Assembly (NCBI GenBank): GCA_902604065.1
Contig: CACKXF010000005.1
Coordinates: 1-52,697 of the forward strand
DNA length: 52,697 nt
Source: an uncultured Pelagibacteraceae bacterium
GTDB taxonomy: Bacteria > Pseudomonadota > Alphaproteobacteria > Pelagibacterales > Pelagibacteraceae
Direction of reading: 5' to 3'
Shown here: piece by piece, positions 12,796-38,375 of the stretch
Layout of the letters: every line of letters begins with the position of its first letter
Position numbering within the stretch: position 1 is the first letter of the stretch
Program-made: the position numbers and the translations under genes
The notes under the pieces: model-generated
What the model saw: only the letters and a program-made list of their open reading frames with translations
Told to the model about the DNA's origin: nothing
The model's database searches: none

Positions 12796-14235
12796 ATGTA
12801 CGAAAGATTTGGACAATTTATAAATGGCAAATGGCAAGGTTCTTCTAGTAACGAAACTTATGATGTAATAAATCCTGCTACAGAAGAACTAATAGGAAAA
12901 GCATCTAAAGCTAATAATAATGATATTCAGTTAGCAATTAAATCAGCAGAAAAAGGCTTAGAAATATGGAAAAATACTTCACCGTGGGAGAGATCAAAAA
13001 TTATAAGAAAAATATCTGAGTTAATAAGAAGTAAATCAGATATTTTATCTAAATGGTTAACTTTAGAAGTTGGTAAACCAATAACAGAATCTCCTGGGGA
13101 AGTGAGCGGTGCTGCTGATATTTTTGAATGGAACTCAGAAGAAACAAAAAGAATTTTCGGAGAGATTAATCAAAGTAGATTCTCAAATACAAGAGTACAC
13201 GTATATTATCAACCTGTTGGAGTTGTAGCGGCGTTAGTGCCATGGAACTTTCCAATAGTCTTAGCCTCTAGGAAAATTTCAACTGCTTTAGCTGCTGGTT
13301 GTTCTGTAATTGTTAAGCCTGATGTAATTACTCCCGGAAGTGTTATGGAACTTGTTGATATTTGTAATGAAGCAGGTGTACCACCTGGCGTAGTAAATTT
13401 ATTATCTGGAGACCCTGCAGAAGTTTCATCCGAATTAATAAAATCAAGTATTATAAAAAAAATATCTATTACAGGCTCTACTAGAGTAGGAAAACTTATT
13501 TTGAAACAAGCTGCTGATAAAGTTCAAAGAGTTACTATGGAGTTAAGTGGTCACTCACCATTCATAGTTTTTGATGATGTCGACTTAAATACAGTTACTG
13601 ATATGGCTATTTCTGCAAAATTTAGAAATAATGGTCAAGTTTGTATTTCTCCAAGTAGATTTTACATACATGAAAATAAAAAAAAAGATTTTACTGACTT
13701 AATGATTAAAAAAACCAAAAAACTAAAAGTTGGTAATGGTATGGACAAAAATATTTCTTTAGGTCCAATGACAACTAAACAAAGACTAGATGGAATTGAA
13801 AAACTTGTTGAAAAAACAAAAAAAGAAGGCGCTAAAGTTTTATTAGGTGGAAGACGACCGCAAGGCTTTAACAAAGGTTTTTTTTATGAACCAACTATTT
13901 TTGATAATGTAAAAGATAATTTTACAATCATGAAAGAAGAACCTTTTGGTCCTTTGGTGCCTATACTTACATTCAAAGATTTTGATGAAGTAATACAAAG
14001 AGCTAATGATAATGACCTTGGTTTATGCAGTTATATTTATACAAATAATTTAGAGAAGGCTCATCGTGCATCTGAATTAATGGAAACAGGTTGTGTAGCT
14101 GTAAATACGTCTGTCGTTGCAGTTGCAGAGGCACCTTTCGGTGGAATTAAACAAACTGGTTATGGTAGAGAAGGTGGTTCTATGGCGATAAAAGACTATC
14201 TAAATGTGAAATATACCCACCTAGGCATTAAATAG
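12796..14235 (+). CDS. NAD(P)-dependent aldehyde dehydrogenase (succinate-semialdehyde dehydrogenase-like)
   Basis: Soluble aldehyde dehydrogenase of 479 residues. N-terminal INGKWQ, the cofactor motif VPWNFPIVLASRK, the GSTRVGK turn, the general-base Glu in TMELSGHSP, the nucleophile Cys in NGQVCISPSR and the EPFGPLVP segment are all present. The overall pattern resembles the GabD-type branch, but substrates of this superfamily cannot be fixed from sequence. It starts 34 bp after tRNA-Glu and 8 bp before the GIY-YIG gene. Acetaldehyde from DMSP breakdown is a conceivable substrate, but it is not in that operon. Confidence 0.9.
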   Translation: MYERFGQFINGKWQGSSSNETYDVINPATEELIGKASKANNNDIQLAIKSAEKGLEIWKNTSPWERSKIIRKISELIRSKSDILSKWLTLEVGKPITESPGEVSGAADIFEWNSEETKRIFGEINQSRFSNTRVHVYYQPVGVVAALVPWNFPIVLASRKISTALAAGCSVIVKPDVITPGSVMELVDICNEAGVPPGVVNLLSGDPAEVSSELIKSSIIKKISITGSTRVGKLILKQAADKVQRVTMELSGHSPFIVFDDVDLNTVTDMAISAKFRNNGQVCISPSRFYIHENKKKDFTDLMIKKTKKLKVGNGMDKNISLGPMTTKQRLDGIEKLVEKTKKEGAKVLLGGRRPQGFNKGFFYEPTIFDNVKDNFTIMKEEPFGPLVPILTFKDFDEVIQRANDNDLGLCSYIYTNNLEKAHRASELMETGCVAVNTSVVAVAEAPFGGIKQTGYGREGGSMAIKDYLNVKYTHLGIK

Positions 14236-14243
14236 TCCTATCT

Positions 14244-14489
14244 ATGAGCTTTTATGTTTATATGCTCAAATCATTAAATAAAAAGTGTGTTACTTACGTT
14301 GGCTATACGAATAATTTATCAAATAGAATCAAGCTACATAATTCAGGAAAAGGAGCTAAATTTACTAGAGGAAGAAAATGGAAGTTAATTTATAAAGAAA
14401 AATTCAGTACAAAAAATCAAGCAATTTCGAGAGAATATTATATAAAGAATAATAGGACATTAAGAAATTATATTAAAAATAAAACATGA
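14244..14489 (+). CDS. GIY-YIG domain protein (YhbQ/UPF0213-like)
   Basis: An 81-residue single-domain member of the GIY-YIG nuclease superfamily. FYVYMLKS gives the first motif strand and TYVGYTNNLSNRIKLHN the second, with the conserved Arg; GAKFTRGRKWKLIYKEKF and a Glu in AISREYYIK complete the core. Such stand-alone proteins are common in bacteria, and their DNA substrate is mostly undefined. It overlaps the following glycosyltransferase start by 4 bp. Confidence 0.9.
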   Translation: MSFYVYMLKSLNKKCVTYVGYTNNLSNRIKLHNSGKGAKFTRGRKWKLIYKEKFSTKNQAISREYYIKNNRTLRNYIKNKT

Positions 14490-17510: not shown

Positions 17511-18221
17511 ATGAAATACTTAAAAAATTATCCCAGTTATTTATTAAGAAAAATTAAATCGAAAAAAATATCTTTTTCCCAAACCGGTTTGGACTTGTTA
17601 TTAACAAATATTTTTAAAGGAATTAAAGAAGGTTTTTATATAGACATTGGTTGTAATCACCCCGTCTACAATAATAATACTTTTCTTTTTCATAAGAGAG
17701 GCTGGAAAGGTCTTAATATTGACTTAGATAAAAGCTCTATTGATTTGTTTAATATTTATAGGAAAAATGATCTTAATATACATGCAGCTTTGTCATCATC
17801 AAATAACACGCGTAAAGTGTACGAATTTCATGCTAAATCGCCTTTGAATACTTTAGATAACAAAGTTGCTAATTATCAAAAGGCTAAAGTAAAAAATACG
17901 TATGAAATAAAAACACAAACATTAAATCAAGTTATTGATGAAAGTGGTATAAATAATAAAAAAATAAATTTTTTATCAATTGATGTGGAAGGTCATGAAC
18001 TTGAAGTGTTAAATGGTTTTAATATAAATCATTATCAACCAGACGTAATTGTTGTTGAATACCTTGATTTAAGTATAAACAAGCTTGAAATTAAAAATTT
18101 AAATATAAATAATGTGTTAAATTCTGAACTTTATAATTATATGATTAATAAAAATTATTCTTTAGTTAATTGGCTCCACTCTGATTTAATATTTATTAAT
18201 AATGAATTTAAAACTAAATAG
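17511..18221 (+). CDS. FkbM-family methyltransferase (copy 1)
   Basis: SAM-dependent O-methyltransferase family often found with polysaccharide genes. The 236 residues contain the SAM motif GFYIDIGCNHPVYNNN, the GLNIDLD acidic loop and the FkbM signature NFLSIDVEGHELEVLNGF, then DVIVVEYLD. It follows the GT9 gene by 3 bp. Its 3' end overlaps the oppositely oriented second FkbM gene by 8 bp. The two share the signature block but otherwise differ, so they are relatives rather than a fresh duplication. Confidence 0.88.
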   Translation: MKYLKNYPSYLLRKIKSKKISFSQTGLDLLLTNIFKGIKEGFYIDIGCNHPVYNNNTFLFHKRGWKGLNIDLDKSSIDLFNIYRKNDLNIHAALSSSNNTRKVYEFHAKSPLNTLDNKVANYQKAKVKNTYEIKTQTLNQVIDESGINNKKINFLSIDVEGHELEVLNGFNINHYQPDVIVVEYLDLSINKLEIKNLNINNVLNSELYNYMINKNYSLVNWLHSDLIFINNEFKTK

Positions 18222-18957
18222 GAAGAAAAAAATAATTATTTTCAAGCTCTTTATTTTCAAGTTTATCACAAGATATTAATTCTTTTTTCTTAACAAAATA
18301 ACAATCGTAACCATATTTCTTTATAAATGATATACTATCTTCAACATTCTTTTTGCTGTGTCTTTTTTCGATCTCTACAAGTAATATTGGTTTATTTTTT
18401 TTAATGGTTTGAGTAGCTCCTTTTATCACTTCAAGCTCATGACCTTCAACATCAATTTTCATAAATTTTATTTTATTCTTTAAATGAATATCATCGAGTT
18501 TCTTAATTTTTACCGGTATCGATTTATAGTTATCAAAAGTTTTAATCGGATGTATCGATGCAGCACCCAACTTAAAGAGTTCCTCAATATTATCTTTAAA
18601 TATAGACTTTGATCTAATTGGTAGTTTTAAAATAACATCTCCGTTTTTATCAGATAATCCAACGTTGTATAAATAAATATTTTTAATTATTTTTTTAAGA
18701 TTTTTTTCTAGGTAGGGATAGAGAAGTGGATTAGGTTCAAAAGAATGGATATTTTTAAAGTGACTAGATAATTTATATGAGTATACACCTCGATAAACAC
18801 CAATATCCAAAGCATCTTTTGAATTATCTGCAAATTTATCAATTATTTGAAGTTCCTTTTCATAACCTTTATTGATAGCTCTTTTTAATCTTTTCTTTAA
18901 TAGGTAACTTTCGGAAAAAAACAGTCTTTTAATTAAAAATTCTATATCTTTTTTCAT
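18214..18957 (-). CDS. FkbM-family methyltransferase (copy 2)
   Basis: A 247-residue FkbM-type enzyme: ALDIGVYRGVYSYKLSS is the SAM-binding loop, IHSFEPNPLLYPYLE the acidic loop, and FMKIDVEGHELEVIKGA the family signature. Its start overlaps the stop of the tyrosine recombinase gene by 4 bp, so recombinase and methyltransferase form a coupled two-gene unit, an unusual pairing. It converges on and overlaps copy 1. Confidence 0.88.
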   Translation of the reverse strand: MKKDIEFLIKRLFFSESYLLKKRLKRAINKGYEKELQIIDKFADNSKDALDIGVYRGVYSYKLSSHFKNIHSFEPNPLLYPYLEKNLKKIIKNIYLYNVGLSDKNGDVILKLPIRSKSIFKDNIEELFKLGAASIHPIKTFDNYKSIPVKIKKLDDIHLKNKIKFMKIDVEGHELEVIKGATQTIKKNKPILLVEIEKRHSKKNVEDSISFIKKYGYDCYFVKKKELISCDKLENKELENNYFFLPI

Positions 18958-19907
18958 ATTTTAACTTTGTTTAGAGCGTTGTTTTTGAATATATTTGCTT
19001 CCTTTATATAACGTCTTACCATTTGTGTGGTTTTATGGCCTGTCATTGCCATTATGCTTCTCTCATCTGCGCCCGCCTCTGCAGCTACAGTAGCAAATCC
19101 AGATCTTAAACTATGACCTGAAAAATTGTTATTTTCTATGCCGGCTAATTTTAAACAATCTTTAATTATAAGAACAACTGATTGATCTGTAAGTCTGTGG
19201 CCTGTTAATGTAGACCCTTTAGCAAATCTTCTAAATATTGGTCCAGTTTTAATTTTTGATATTTTCAACCAATTTTTAAGATTTATAACAGGACAATAAG
19301 TTTCTTTAGTAAAGTAGGGTAGGCCCTTGATCATTCCTTCTCCAAATTGATCAGTTTTAGACCTATTAAGAGCAATTTTAACTCCTTCATCAACGAATTC
19401 AAGATCCTCATGGTCAATAGATATTAATTCAGTTCGTCTAAAACCACCCCCAAATCCAATTAATATCAATGTCTTGTTTCTAAGTTTTACAATTTCCTCA
19501 ATATTTTGTTGATTTATTACATTAATTATATCTTTTAAGTGATTGATTAATATGGGTTTTTTACCTATCTGTTTGCTGCCCTTAATTCTTTTAATTCCCA
19601 TTAAATTCTCAATAATTACAGGATGTTTTGTGTCTAGATAATGCCCTTTTAGCTTATGAACAACTCCAATTGACACCAATCTACGTCTCAAAGTGCTAAT
19701 TTTTGATGTTTTAGATAAGTGAGTAAGGTACAAAGATACTATTTTTGGATCTGTTGGCATTGACTTAAAACCGTGTTTTGAGCAAAAACCTGCAAAATCT
19801 TTAAAATCAGATCTATAAGCTCTTAGAGTATTGTTTGCCTTTGATGTTTTGAGGTTATTTAAAGTTTCCTCATGTAAAGCTTTTATGTCAGTTGTCAGTT
19901 CATTCAT
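18954..19907 (-). CDS. Tyrosine recombinase / phage-type integrase
   Basis: Site-specific recombinase of 317 residues with an N-terminal core-binding (SAM-like) domain (about 5-95) and a C-terminal catalytic domain. The full catalytic set is visible: Arg158 (GFRRTE), Lys184 (RSKTD), His265 and Arg268 (HSLRSG), His291 (TGHKTTQ) and the nucleophile Tyr300 (VRRYI). It is therefore likely active. No adjacent phage or conjugation genes are seen. A near-perfect 14-7-14 inverted repeat lies 3 bp before its start and could be its crossover site or operator. Confidence 0.93.
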   Translation of the reverse strand: MNELTTDIKALHEETLNNLKTSKANNTLRAYRSDFKDFAGFCSKHGFKSMPTDPKIVSLYLTHLSKTSKISTLRRRLVSIGVVHKLKGHYLDTKHPVIIENLMGIKRIKGSKQIGKKPILINHLKDIINVINQQNIEEIVKLRNKTLILIGFGGGFRRTELISIDHEDLEFVDEGVKIALNRSKTDQFGEGMIKGLPYFTKETYCPVINLKNWLKISKIKTGPIFRRFAKGSTLTGHRLTDQSVVLIIKDCLKLAGIENNNFSGHSLRSGFATVAAEAGADERSIMAMTGHKTTQMVRRYIKEANIFKNNALNKVKI

Positions 19908-19910
19908 ATC

Positions 19911-19945
19911 ATTACTAGTGATAACAATTAATTATCATTAGTAAT
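19911..19945. repeat. loxP-like inverted repeat upstream of the recombinase
   Basis: Left arm ATTACTAGTGATAA, spacer CAATTAA, right arm TTATCATTAGTAAT: the arms are inverted copies matching at 13 of 14 positions. The geometry (14-7-14) is that of a tyrosine-recombinase core site. It lies between the recombinase start and the divergent small membrane-protein gene, so it could equally be an operator or an mRNA hairpin over the recombinase ribosome-binding region. Confidence 0.75.
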
Positions 19946-19991
19946 ATAATAACTCATTTTAGATGTCAAGCAAATAAGATAAAATACTTTA

Positions 19992-37488: not shown

Positions 37489-38375
37489 TTAACAATTTGT
37501 TCAATTTGATAAAAAATATTTGAAGTGTTTAAATTGATATTATTTAAATTAACTATTTTTTTTATTATTTCAGTTCTGTCTTGAAGAAATTCGTCTTTAA
37601 ACGTTTCATTTTTATATCTATCATAAAAATGTTGATTCACTAAAAAAATAGCAAAATTTAGGTAATTATAATTTCTTTTTTTTTGATAATTTTTGAATAA
37701 TTTATCAATATTTTTTAATAAACCATCTTCATAATTAATTTTATCATTTAAACATATATTGTTAAATTTGAGGAAATCGCCTGGGGTTAAATTAGTTTTT
37801 TTGAAGTTTATTTTGCATTCAATTTGATTACTTGAAATTAATTTTTCAATTACTTGAATATTTTCATTTTGATTTGTAAATATTTTAAATTCTATACATC
37901 TCGATCTAATTGTTTCAAGTACAGGTTTATTCTTATTATTAATCAAAATAAAATTATTAAAAATTGTAGGTTCTTCTATAATTTTTAATAAAGCATTACA
38001 GCAATTGATATTAAATAATTCAATATCGTCAAAAATAATAAATCTAATTTGATTATCGATAGTAGATTTTTGTAAAACAGTTCGTAAATTTCTTATATTG
38101 TCTATCTTGATTAAATTATCTTCACCTGAAAAGTACATTATATTTAAATATGAGGTTTCTTTAGGAGAAATAAATAATTTGCTATTTTTATTGATTTGAT
38201 TTTCTTTTTCAATATAATTTTCTTTATCAAAGTAGTTTGATAAAATATGGTGTATTAGTGTAAATTTTCCTATACCTTTTTTCCCACTTATCATGGATAC
38301 TTTTGGAAATAAATCTGCTCTTAACAATTTAGTTAATTCATCAAAATGTCTATTTAAACCTATCAGCTTTTGCAT
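37485..38375 (-). CDS. holB: DNA polymerase III delta' subunit
   Basis: Clamp-loader subunit of 296 residues, quite diverged. A degenerate P-loop SGKKGIGKFTL (31-40, Phe in the usual Ser/Thr position), IIFDDIELFNINCCNALLKIIEEP (sensor-like core of delta' in two parts) and TIRSRCIEFK support the call. No zinc cysteines. Position between tmk and metG is the conserved site of holB. Confidence 0.85.
   Translation of the reverse strand: MQKLIGLNRHFDELTKLLRADLFPKVSMISGKKGIGKFTLIHHILSNYFDKENYIEKENQINKNSKLFISPKETSYLNIMYFSGEDNLIKIDNIRNLRTVLQKSTIDNQIRFIIFDDIELFNINCCNALLKIIEEPTIFNNFILINNKNKPVLETIRSRCIEFKIFTNQNENIQVIEKLISSNQIECKINFKKTNLTPGDFLKFNNICLNDKINYEDGLLKNIDKLFKNYQKKRNYNYLNFAIFLVNQHFYDRYKNETFKDEFLQDRTEIIKKIVNLNNINLNTSNIFYQIEQIVK

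Follow-up and report, generated by a model that had tools for sequence, protein, structure and literature searches.

A probable dif site beside a single Cre-like recombinase gene at the replication terminus of SAR11 chromosomes

What is the role of a loxP-like inverted repeat that lies directly ahead of a tyrosine recombinase gene in an uncultured SAR11 bacterium? In a 2009 survey, no dif/Xer system was reported for Pelagibacter, and SAR11 was cited as a free-living bacterium without one, genome streamlining having removed a non-vital system (PMC2731167). Kono 2011 leaves Pelagibacter unnamed in its main text and calls alternative machinery an interesting research area (PMC3025954). Our full-text literature search for dif/Xer or dimer resolution in Pelagibacter or SAR11 and for dif in pelagiphages, which left subscription papers mostly outside, returned no paper describing such a system by its title or the opening of its abstract. 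The comparisons below indicate that the repeat is very probably the dif site of the SAR11 chromosome and the adjacent gene its sole Xer-type recombinase, the two forming a Cre-like system in place of XerCD/dif (Table 1).

Anatomy and conservation of the palindrome

The window, that is the whole stretch of DNA analyzed (52,697 nucleotides), is contig 5 of an 872-kb genome assembly that is 75% complete. On the forward strand the palindrome reads ATTACTAGTGATAA-CAATTAA-TTATCATTAGTAAT. The 14-7-14 repeat that the sequence-only reading had described beside the recombinase start is confirmed, with arms agreeing at 13 of 14 positions and a gap of 3 bp (19908-19910) to the recombinase ATG (19907-19905, minus strand). 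Its size, with two arms around a short central region, fits the general dif/Xer expectation of about 28-35 bp. It is the sole 14-7-14 repeat in the whole window at 13/14 or better, and shuffled windows (n = 60) contained a mean of 0.12 such repeats; because of this chance expectation the palindrome by itself is weak evidence, and the case must therefore rest on comparison. When spacers of 5-9 bp were allowed, the window contained four matches, two of them being one locus, versus 0.5 in shuffles. Two other 13/14 inverted repeats with 6-8 bp spacers, at 13010-13045 and 37955-37990 of the window, are perhaps terminator hairpins.

Table 1 Features of the locus in window coordinates
Feature	Position	Strand	Description
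dif-like site	19911..19945	.	14-bp arms and 7-bp spacer; in gene direction ATTACTAATGATAA-TTAATTG-TTATCACTAGTAAT
Recombinase gene	18954..19907	-	Single Xer-type / Cre-like tyrosine recombinase, 317 aa
-35 box	19964..19969	-	Conserved TTGACA of the recombinase promoter
Putative replication terminus	18172..19945	.	Cumulative GC-skew maximum at 18172, coding-strand switch at 18215

In SAR11 relatives, GATAA-N7-TTATC was found directly upstream of the recombinase gene in 131 of 131 loci (L001-L131; 70 distinct 45-mers), a set that includes the window twice and some genomes present in both collections. The spacer was TTAATTG in 106 loci, TTAATGG in 21, TTTATTG in two, and TTAATCG and TTATTTG in one each, and this tally indicates that the spacer asymmetry and polarity are maintained. 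The outer arms fall into two types, for which we use our own labels: "alpha" (ATTACTAAY...AATAGTAAT, with variants) in relatives at ≥69% recombinase identity and "beta" (TTTCC...GGAAA) in a divergent subclade at 57-64% identity, both arms switching jointly. Of 499 named relatives of the recombinase, 80 loci at 81-98% identity were used, and all of these are titled Pelagibacteraceae or Pelagibacterales (SAR11).

The site is close to single-copy. A search for a partner site in the window's own genome, with up to 3 mismatches permitted, returned one copy. Across the genus, 118 of 169 mostly incomplete genomes contained the core with at most one mismatch (12 of the 14 genomes with ≥90% completeness), and only 2 of these 118 had a second copy, each with 1 mismatch; the reversed control pattern matched in 4 of 169. 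Incompleteness likely explains the genomes without the core; 47 of those 51 also contained no PF00589 match. The other four are G093, which has another spacer, G012 and G111, in which the gene begins at a contig end, and G222, whose PF00589-matching ORF (458 aa) is of another kind. Two genomes of 93% completeness, G094 and G220, had neither the core nor any PF00589 match; the terminus may be missing from these assemblies, or the loss may be genuine. The core of G028 is on one contig and a fragment of its recombinase gene on another, and the 1-mismatch core of G024, which comes without a recombinase gene, is chance-like when compared with the reversed control.

A TTGAC -35 box stands at a near-fixed distance in all 131 loci (identical in 126), so the palindrome overlaps the recombinase promoter, and the -10 element presumably must overlap the palindrome edge. 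Since the site covers the promoter of the recombinase gene, recombinase bound there probably also represses its own transcription, and to this extent the autoregulatory operator that the sequence-only reading had offered as its second option is probably real. As the sole role it is disfavored. A palindrome at which the recombinase or another dimeric protein only represses its own promoter, with the recombinase acting elsewhere, would account for the near-fixed -35 box and for the coverage of the -10/start region, but it leaves unexplained the conserved asymmetric spacer, the terminus position, the absence of XerCD and dif from the same genus, the plasmid sites several hundred bp from their gene and the sites on phage contigs that gave no match to the gene; we therefore regard an operator-only function as improbable.

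Terminus position and the Xer complement of the order

The GC skew of the window changes from plus to minus at the recombinase gene, and in 10 of 10 sequences examined, one of them a closed chromosome, the cumulative GC-skew maximum was located 0.7-2.1 kb from the site. In nine hand-picked contigs of 53-400 kb (the window and eight others, with further long contigs such as those of G116, G093 and G060 left out), the skew maximum was 748-1950 bp from the site in 9/9, and the coding-strand maximum was at 927-1718 bp. The closed 1.21-Mb genome G603, from another genus of Pelagibacteraceae, encodes a recombinase of 56% identity and carries the site TTATTCCGATAATTAATTGTTATCGGAAGTA at 773,634, and the skew maximum of its contiguous 480-1040 kb is at 771,546. 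Between about 180 kb and this maximum its skew is mostly positive, and past it mostly negative, which places the inferred origin roughly opposite the site, an approximate placement that draws on 760 kb of sequence. The effects of GC skew and gene orientation are confounded, and the third-codon-position skew maximum, at 66 bp from the site in G034, 27 kb in G021 and 18 kb in the window, agrees closely with the site in one of the three sequences computed.

The genus also differs from another family of its order in its recombinases. Of 91 genus genomes, 65 matched PF00589, 59 of them once and six twice, and none of the matches listed there was XerC/XerD-like; the four second matches among those listed come from ORFs of 348-464 aa and score 82-87 bits. 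The other family searched (f2, n = 53) mostly has both XerC- and XerD-like recombinases, with at least two matches in 38 genomes, one in 13 and none in two, and its XerC/XerD-like matches among those listed scored 133-164 bits, with a few more at 82-99. In all 150 genomes searched, a PF00589 match was present in 23 of the 23 that are ≥90% complete. A match to the canonical alphaproteobacterial dif pattern occurs in 28 of the 53 genomes of f2 and in 9 of 15 from elsewhere in the class, versus 1 of 106 genus genomes (with a mismatch), which is chance level given a reversed control of 2 of 106. FtsK-gamma was detected in 116 of 150 genomes of all families, including the window's own genome. A KOPS-like search gave many G-rich words biased relative to the site, none of them prominent; the candidate GGGNAGGG, oriented 17 to 1 towards the site, was rejected as it ranks 35th of 56 control words by count. 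As a separate observation, G204 has a second integrase-like match, a 472-aa ORF about 4-5 kb from its dif-like site (L354, G204:C14:6000-16000).

Recombinase family and plasmid relatives

The residues R157, K184, H265, R268, H291 and Y300, which we take to be catalytic from the tyrosine recombinase family motif, are invariant across 37 aligned SAR11 sequences; in a 16-row alignment with plasmid relatives, R157 is nearly invariant and the other five remain invariant. The window recombinase scored 71.4 bits against PF00589 and fell far below the equivalog cut-offs of the XerD (73.7 bits versus 329.6), XerC (62.4 versus 335.15) and XerS (33 versus 267) models. A family profile built from 16 members, six of Pelagibacteraceae and ten of plasmids, matched Cre best among solved structures (99.6 bits, E 1.8e-27), followed by XerD (68.1) and XerH (38.6). 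This lead holds only for the family profile: with the window sequence alone as the query, XerD (30.0 bits) is slightly above Cre (26.7). The predicted structure of the recombinase had a pLDDT of 46. Membership in the XerCD-like group, first suggested by the resemblance of the inner TAA...TTA to canonical dif, was rejected by the family scores together with the tree described below.

In a plasmid collection, 4,205 records matched the recombinase; the best are mostly annotated 'site-specific integrase' and belong to plasmids of Bacillota, Bacteroidota, Chlamydiota and Pseudomonadota. Of the 25 plasmid matches listed, 12 were used (L363-L374; 34-42% identity), and together with 29 genome loci (G603 and L376-L403) they gave a set of 41 homologue loci at 28-56% identity. 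The pattern [9 bp]GATAA-N6-8-TTATC[9 bp], with a threshold chosen after viewing the 12 plasmids, reached that threshold in 26 of 41 loci versus 1 of 820 shuffles. These 26 are nine from the plasmid set of 12, 16 from the 28 genome loci other than G603, and G603 itself, and all of the matches lie upstream of the gene within about 1 kb, in some plasmids several hundred bp away from it. The site of a Mesobacillus plasmid, TTAACTAACGATAA-TATATAG-TTATCAATAGTCAG, is nearly identical to the SAR11 alpha site. More broadly, this widespread plasmid-type recombinase family has the GATAA-N6-8-TTATC palindrome upstream in 25 of 40 loci when G603 is set aside.

In a tree of 39 rows, which includes 14 of the 28 other genome loci and no Cre row, all SAR11 rows cluster together (87/100, 86% of bootstrap trees), surrounded by homologues from plasmids and genomes. 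The arm types are on separate branches (alpha 90/78; beta with G603 97/92), and the XerC/XerD-like rows of f2, three of four of them incomplete, are separated at 100/100. The SAR11 module thus appears, by sequence affinity, to derive from a plasmid multimer-resolution recombinase with a nearby site; because the tree has long branches, as the tool warned, and several open forks, we infer the direction of transfer rather than read it from the topology. The same relatives, at 34-42% identity and in the same part of the tree, would also suit a module for plasmid resolution that entered once close to the terminus and persists for some other purpose, playing no part in the resolution of chromosome dimers. 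We consider this highly improbable: G603, at 56% identity and from another genus, still has the site and gene at the skew switch, and a further tyrosine recombinase is not seen in most genus genomes.

Gene neighborhoods bear on the remaining alternative. All labels of neighboring genes were assigned by eye. Among 56 full-length named loci, the recombinase was present in 56, an AEC-transporter-like gene in 55 and an MGMT-like gene in 45, with an adjacent FkbM-like gene in six and a cupin-like gene in five; these counts indicate that the gene and the site travel together and their immediate neighbors change. Neither a second att copy nor element boundaries were found in the own genome, the genus genomes or the neighborhood comparison. 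An attachment or inversion site of a mobile element with the adjacent gene as its integrase, to which the tyrosine recombinase beside an inverted-repeat core site, the PHROG integrase matches of the window recombinase and the surface-sugar-like genes (by eye) on one side would all be suited, is the least probable reading, as there is no second site in the own genome or, essentially, in the genus, the gene and site are kept as neighbors change, and the position is terminal and the recombinase essentially the sole one of the genus. The suggestion of the sequence-only reading that the region may invert, excise or integrate accordingly found no support in the 75%-complete genome or in the roughly one copy per genome at the terminus, and an inversion or excision element was rejected; the absent partner site does not refute a dif site, because the partner of dif is the copy on the sister chromosome. 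Elsewhere in the window, a small ORF resembling a GIY-YIG nuclease-type protein was seen at 14244-14489 between aldehyde dehydrogenase-like and sugar-transfer-like genes (all by eye).

Proposed mechanism, pelagiphage sites and significance

Identification of the palindrome as dif draws on its anatomy, its conservation, the joint arm difference between subclades, the near single copy and the terminus position, together with the lack of XerC/XerD-like matches, a canonical dif that is not above chance, the presence of FtsK-gamma and the upstream core of the plasmid relatives. The option that the recombinase acts here on a core site of its own, with two protomers flanking a 7-bp crossover region, is the best-supported part of the sequence-only reading, at the level of sequence comparison, and its likening of the site to loxP is apt given the profile match to Cre. 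In the mechanism that we propose, binding, cleavage, dimer resolution, FtsK control, autorepression and the direction of transfer are all inferred. Two recombinase protomers would bind the arms of one site; in a chromosome dimer, FtsK would presumably bring the two site copies to one another at the division septum, the copies would synapse, and strand exchange within the 7-bp spacer would yield monomers.

Several known systems share parts of this arrangement. Cre of the phage-plasmid P1 is a single recombinase that resolves plasmid dimers at an inverted-repeat site, loxP, and it is the best structure match of the SAR11/plasmid family profile; the loxP spacer has 8 bp versus 7 bp in SAR11, and the SAR11 site is chromosomal and at the terminus. 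XerC/XerD-dif is alike in the proposed role, the presence of FtsK-gamma and the inner TAA...TTA geometry, but has two recombinases instead of one and a center of 6 bp instead of 7 bp. The nearest precedent, likened by description, is XerL/dif of Legionellales, a lineage that had also been described as lacking dif/Xer; it likewise has a single recombinase, long symmetric arms and a dif close to the GC-skew maximum. It differs in that dif and xerL are >400 kb apart in L. pneumophila, whereas the SAR11 site and gene are adjacent and share a promoter region (PMC9765430). In XerS/difSL and XerH/difH a single recombinase gene likewise adjoins its dif, with a central region of 11 bp in difSL versus 7 bp in the SAR11 site (PMC5357621). 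The SAR11 protein is distant from XerS by the model score given above, and XerH matched the family profile weakly in comparison with Cre.

IMG/VR contigs also contain the core, 29 in number with several near-copies among them; by eye, it is flanked by alpha- or beta-type letters on both sides in 19, on one side in three and on neither in seven. Exact alpha arms with a 6-8 bp gap were present in 37 contigs and exact beta arms in 23 (phage-site loci are among L225-L253 and L284-L340 for IMG/VR, and in cultured HTVC035P, HTVC100P, HTVC106P and Greip). Phage sites are often tandem, one alpha and one beta, with variable spacers of 6-8 bp. In nine contigs examined ORF by ORF, the site occupies the gap that precedes the large terminase gene and its short upstream gene, and a small-terminase-like gene (labels by eye) adjoins it where covered. 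A pelagiphage-type large terminase was found in 44 of 86 distinct contigs, and tblastn found the recombinase in 0 of these 86, the loci often being only part of a contig. A scan of viral contigs yielded one weak relative (41 residues, L132), and phage records gave 20 recombinase matches, of which the top one shares 26% identity across 91% of the protein. At L229 (7240-7256), the host core and spacer come with other outer arms, which look symmetric by eye and may represent a third type.

Twelve cultured pelagiphages were compared near the terminase with six shuffles each, whose maxima were 20/28 and 15/20. HTVC100P (27/28), HTVC035P (26/28 and 18/20), Greip (25/28) and HTVC106P (18/20) were clearly above the shuffles; HTVC024P, Lederberg, HTVC034P and Skadi-3 were borderline; HTVC204P, HTVC028P, HTVC203P and HTVC010P had no arm match clearly above shuffles (HTVC010P 15/20 versus at most 14); and two non-SAR11 control phages were negative. 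All 37 contigs with exact alpha arms, and 22 of the 23 with exact beta arms, have a spacer unlike that of the host, so recombination between phage copies fits better than integration at the host dif, which is disfavored as the general use of the phage sites. A prophage at the host dif found no support either: among 169 host genomes, only two have an HTVC106P-type terminase, and the loci concerned have no dif-like site. According to a review, HTVC010P has proteins in common with a cluster of SAR11 prophages (PMC10533544). Phages might use the host recombinase for multimer resolution or, where the spacer matches, for integration. The balance tips only slightly towards the full scenario, in which SAR11 swapped XerCD/dif for a captured plasmid Cre/lox-like module whose arms diversified alongside the enzyme, and arms of pelagiphages of the HTVC106P/HTVC010P kind recruit the host recombinase onto phage DNA; the pelagiphage part is the least certain of the whole account.

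If the proposal is correct, the dif/Xer function of SAR11 would have been replaced, not lost, by a plasmid-type single-recombinase module, and a very abundant ocean bacterium would rely on one enzyme of plasmid type where other bacteria usually have a pair. This would be a visible case of a plasmid maintenance system assuming chromosome maintenance, and would tie a short motif to the SAR11 replication terminus as one half of a testable two-part system, and it may offer a function for the intergenic palindromes of pelagiphages.
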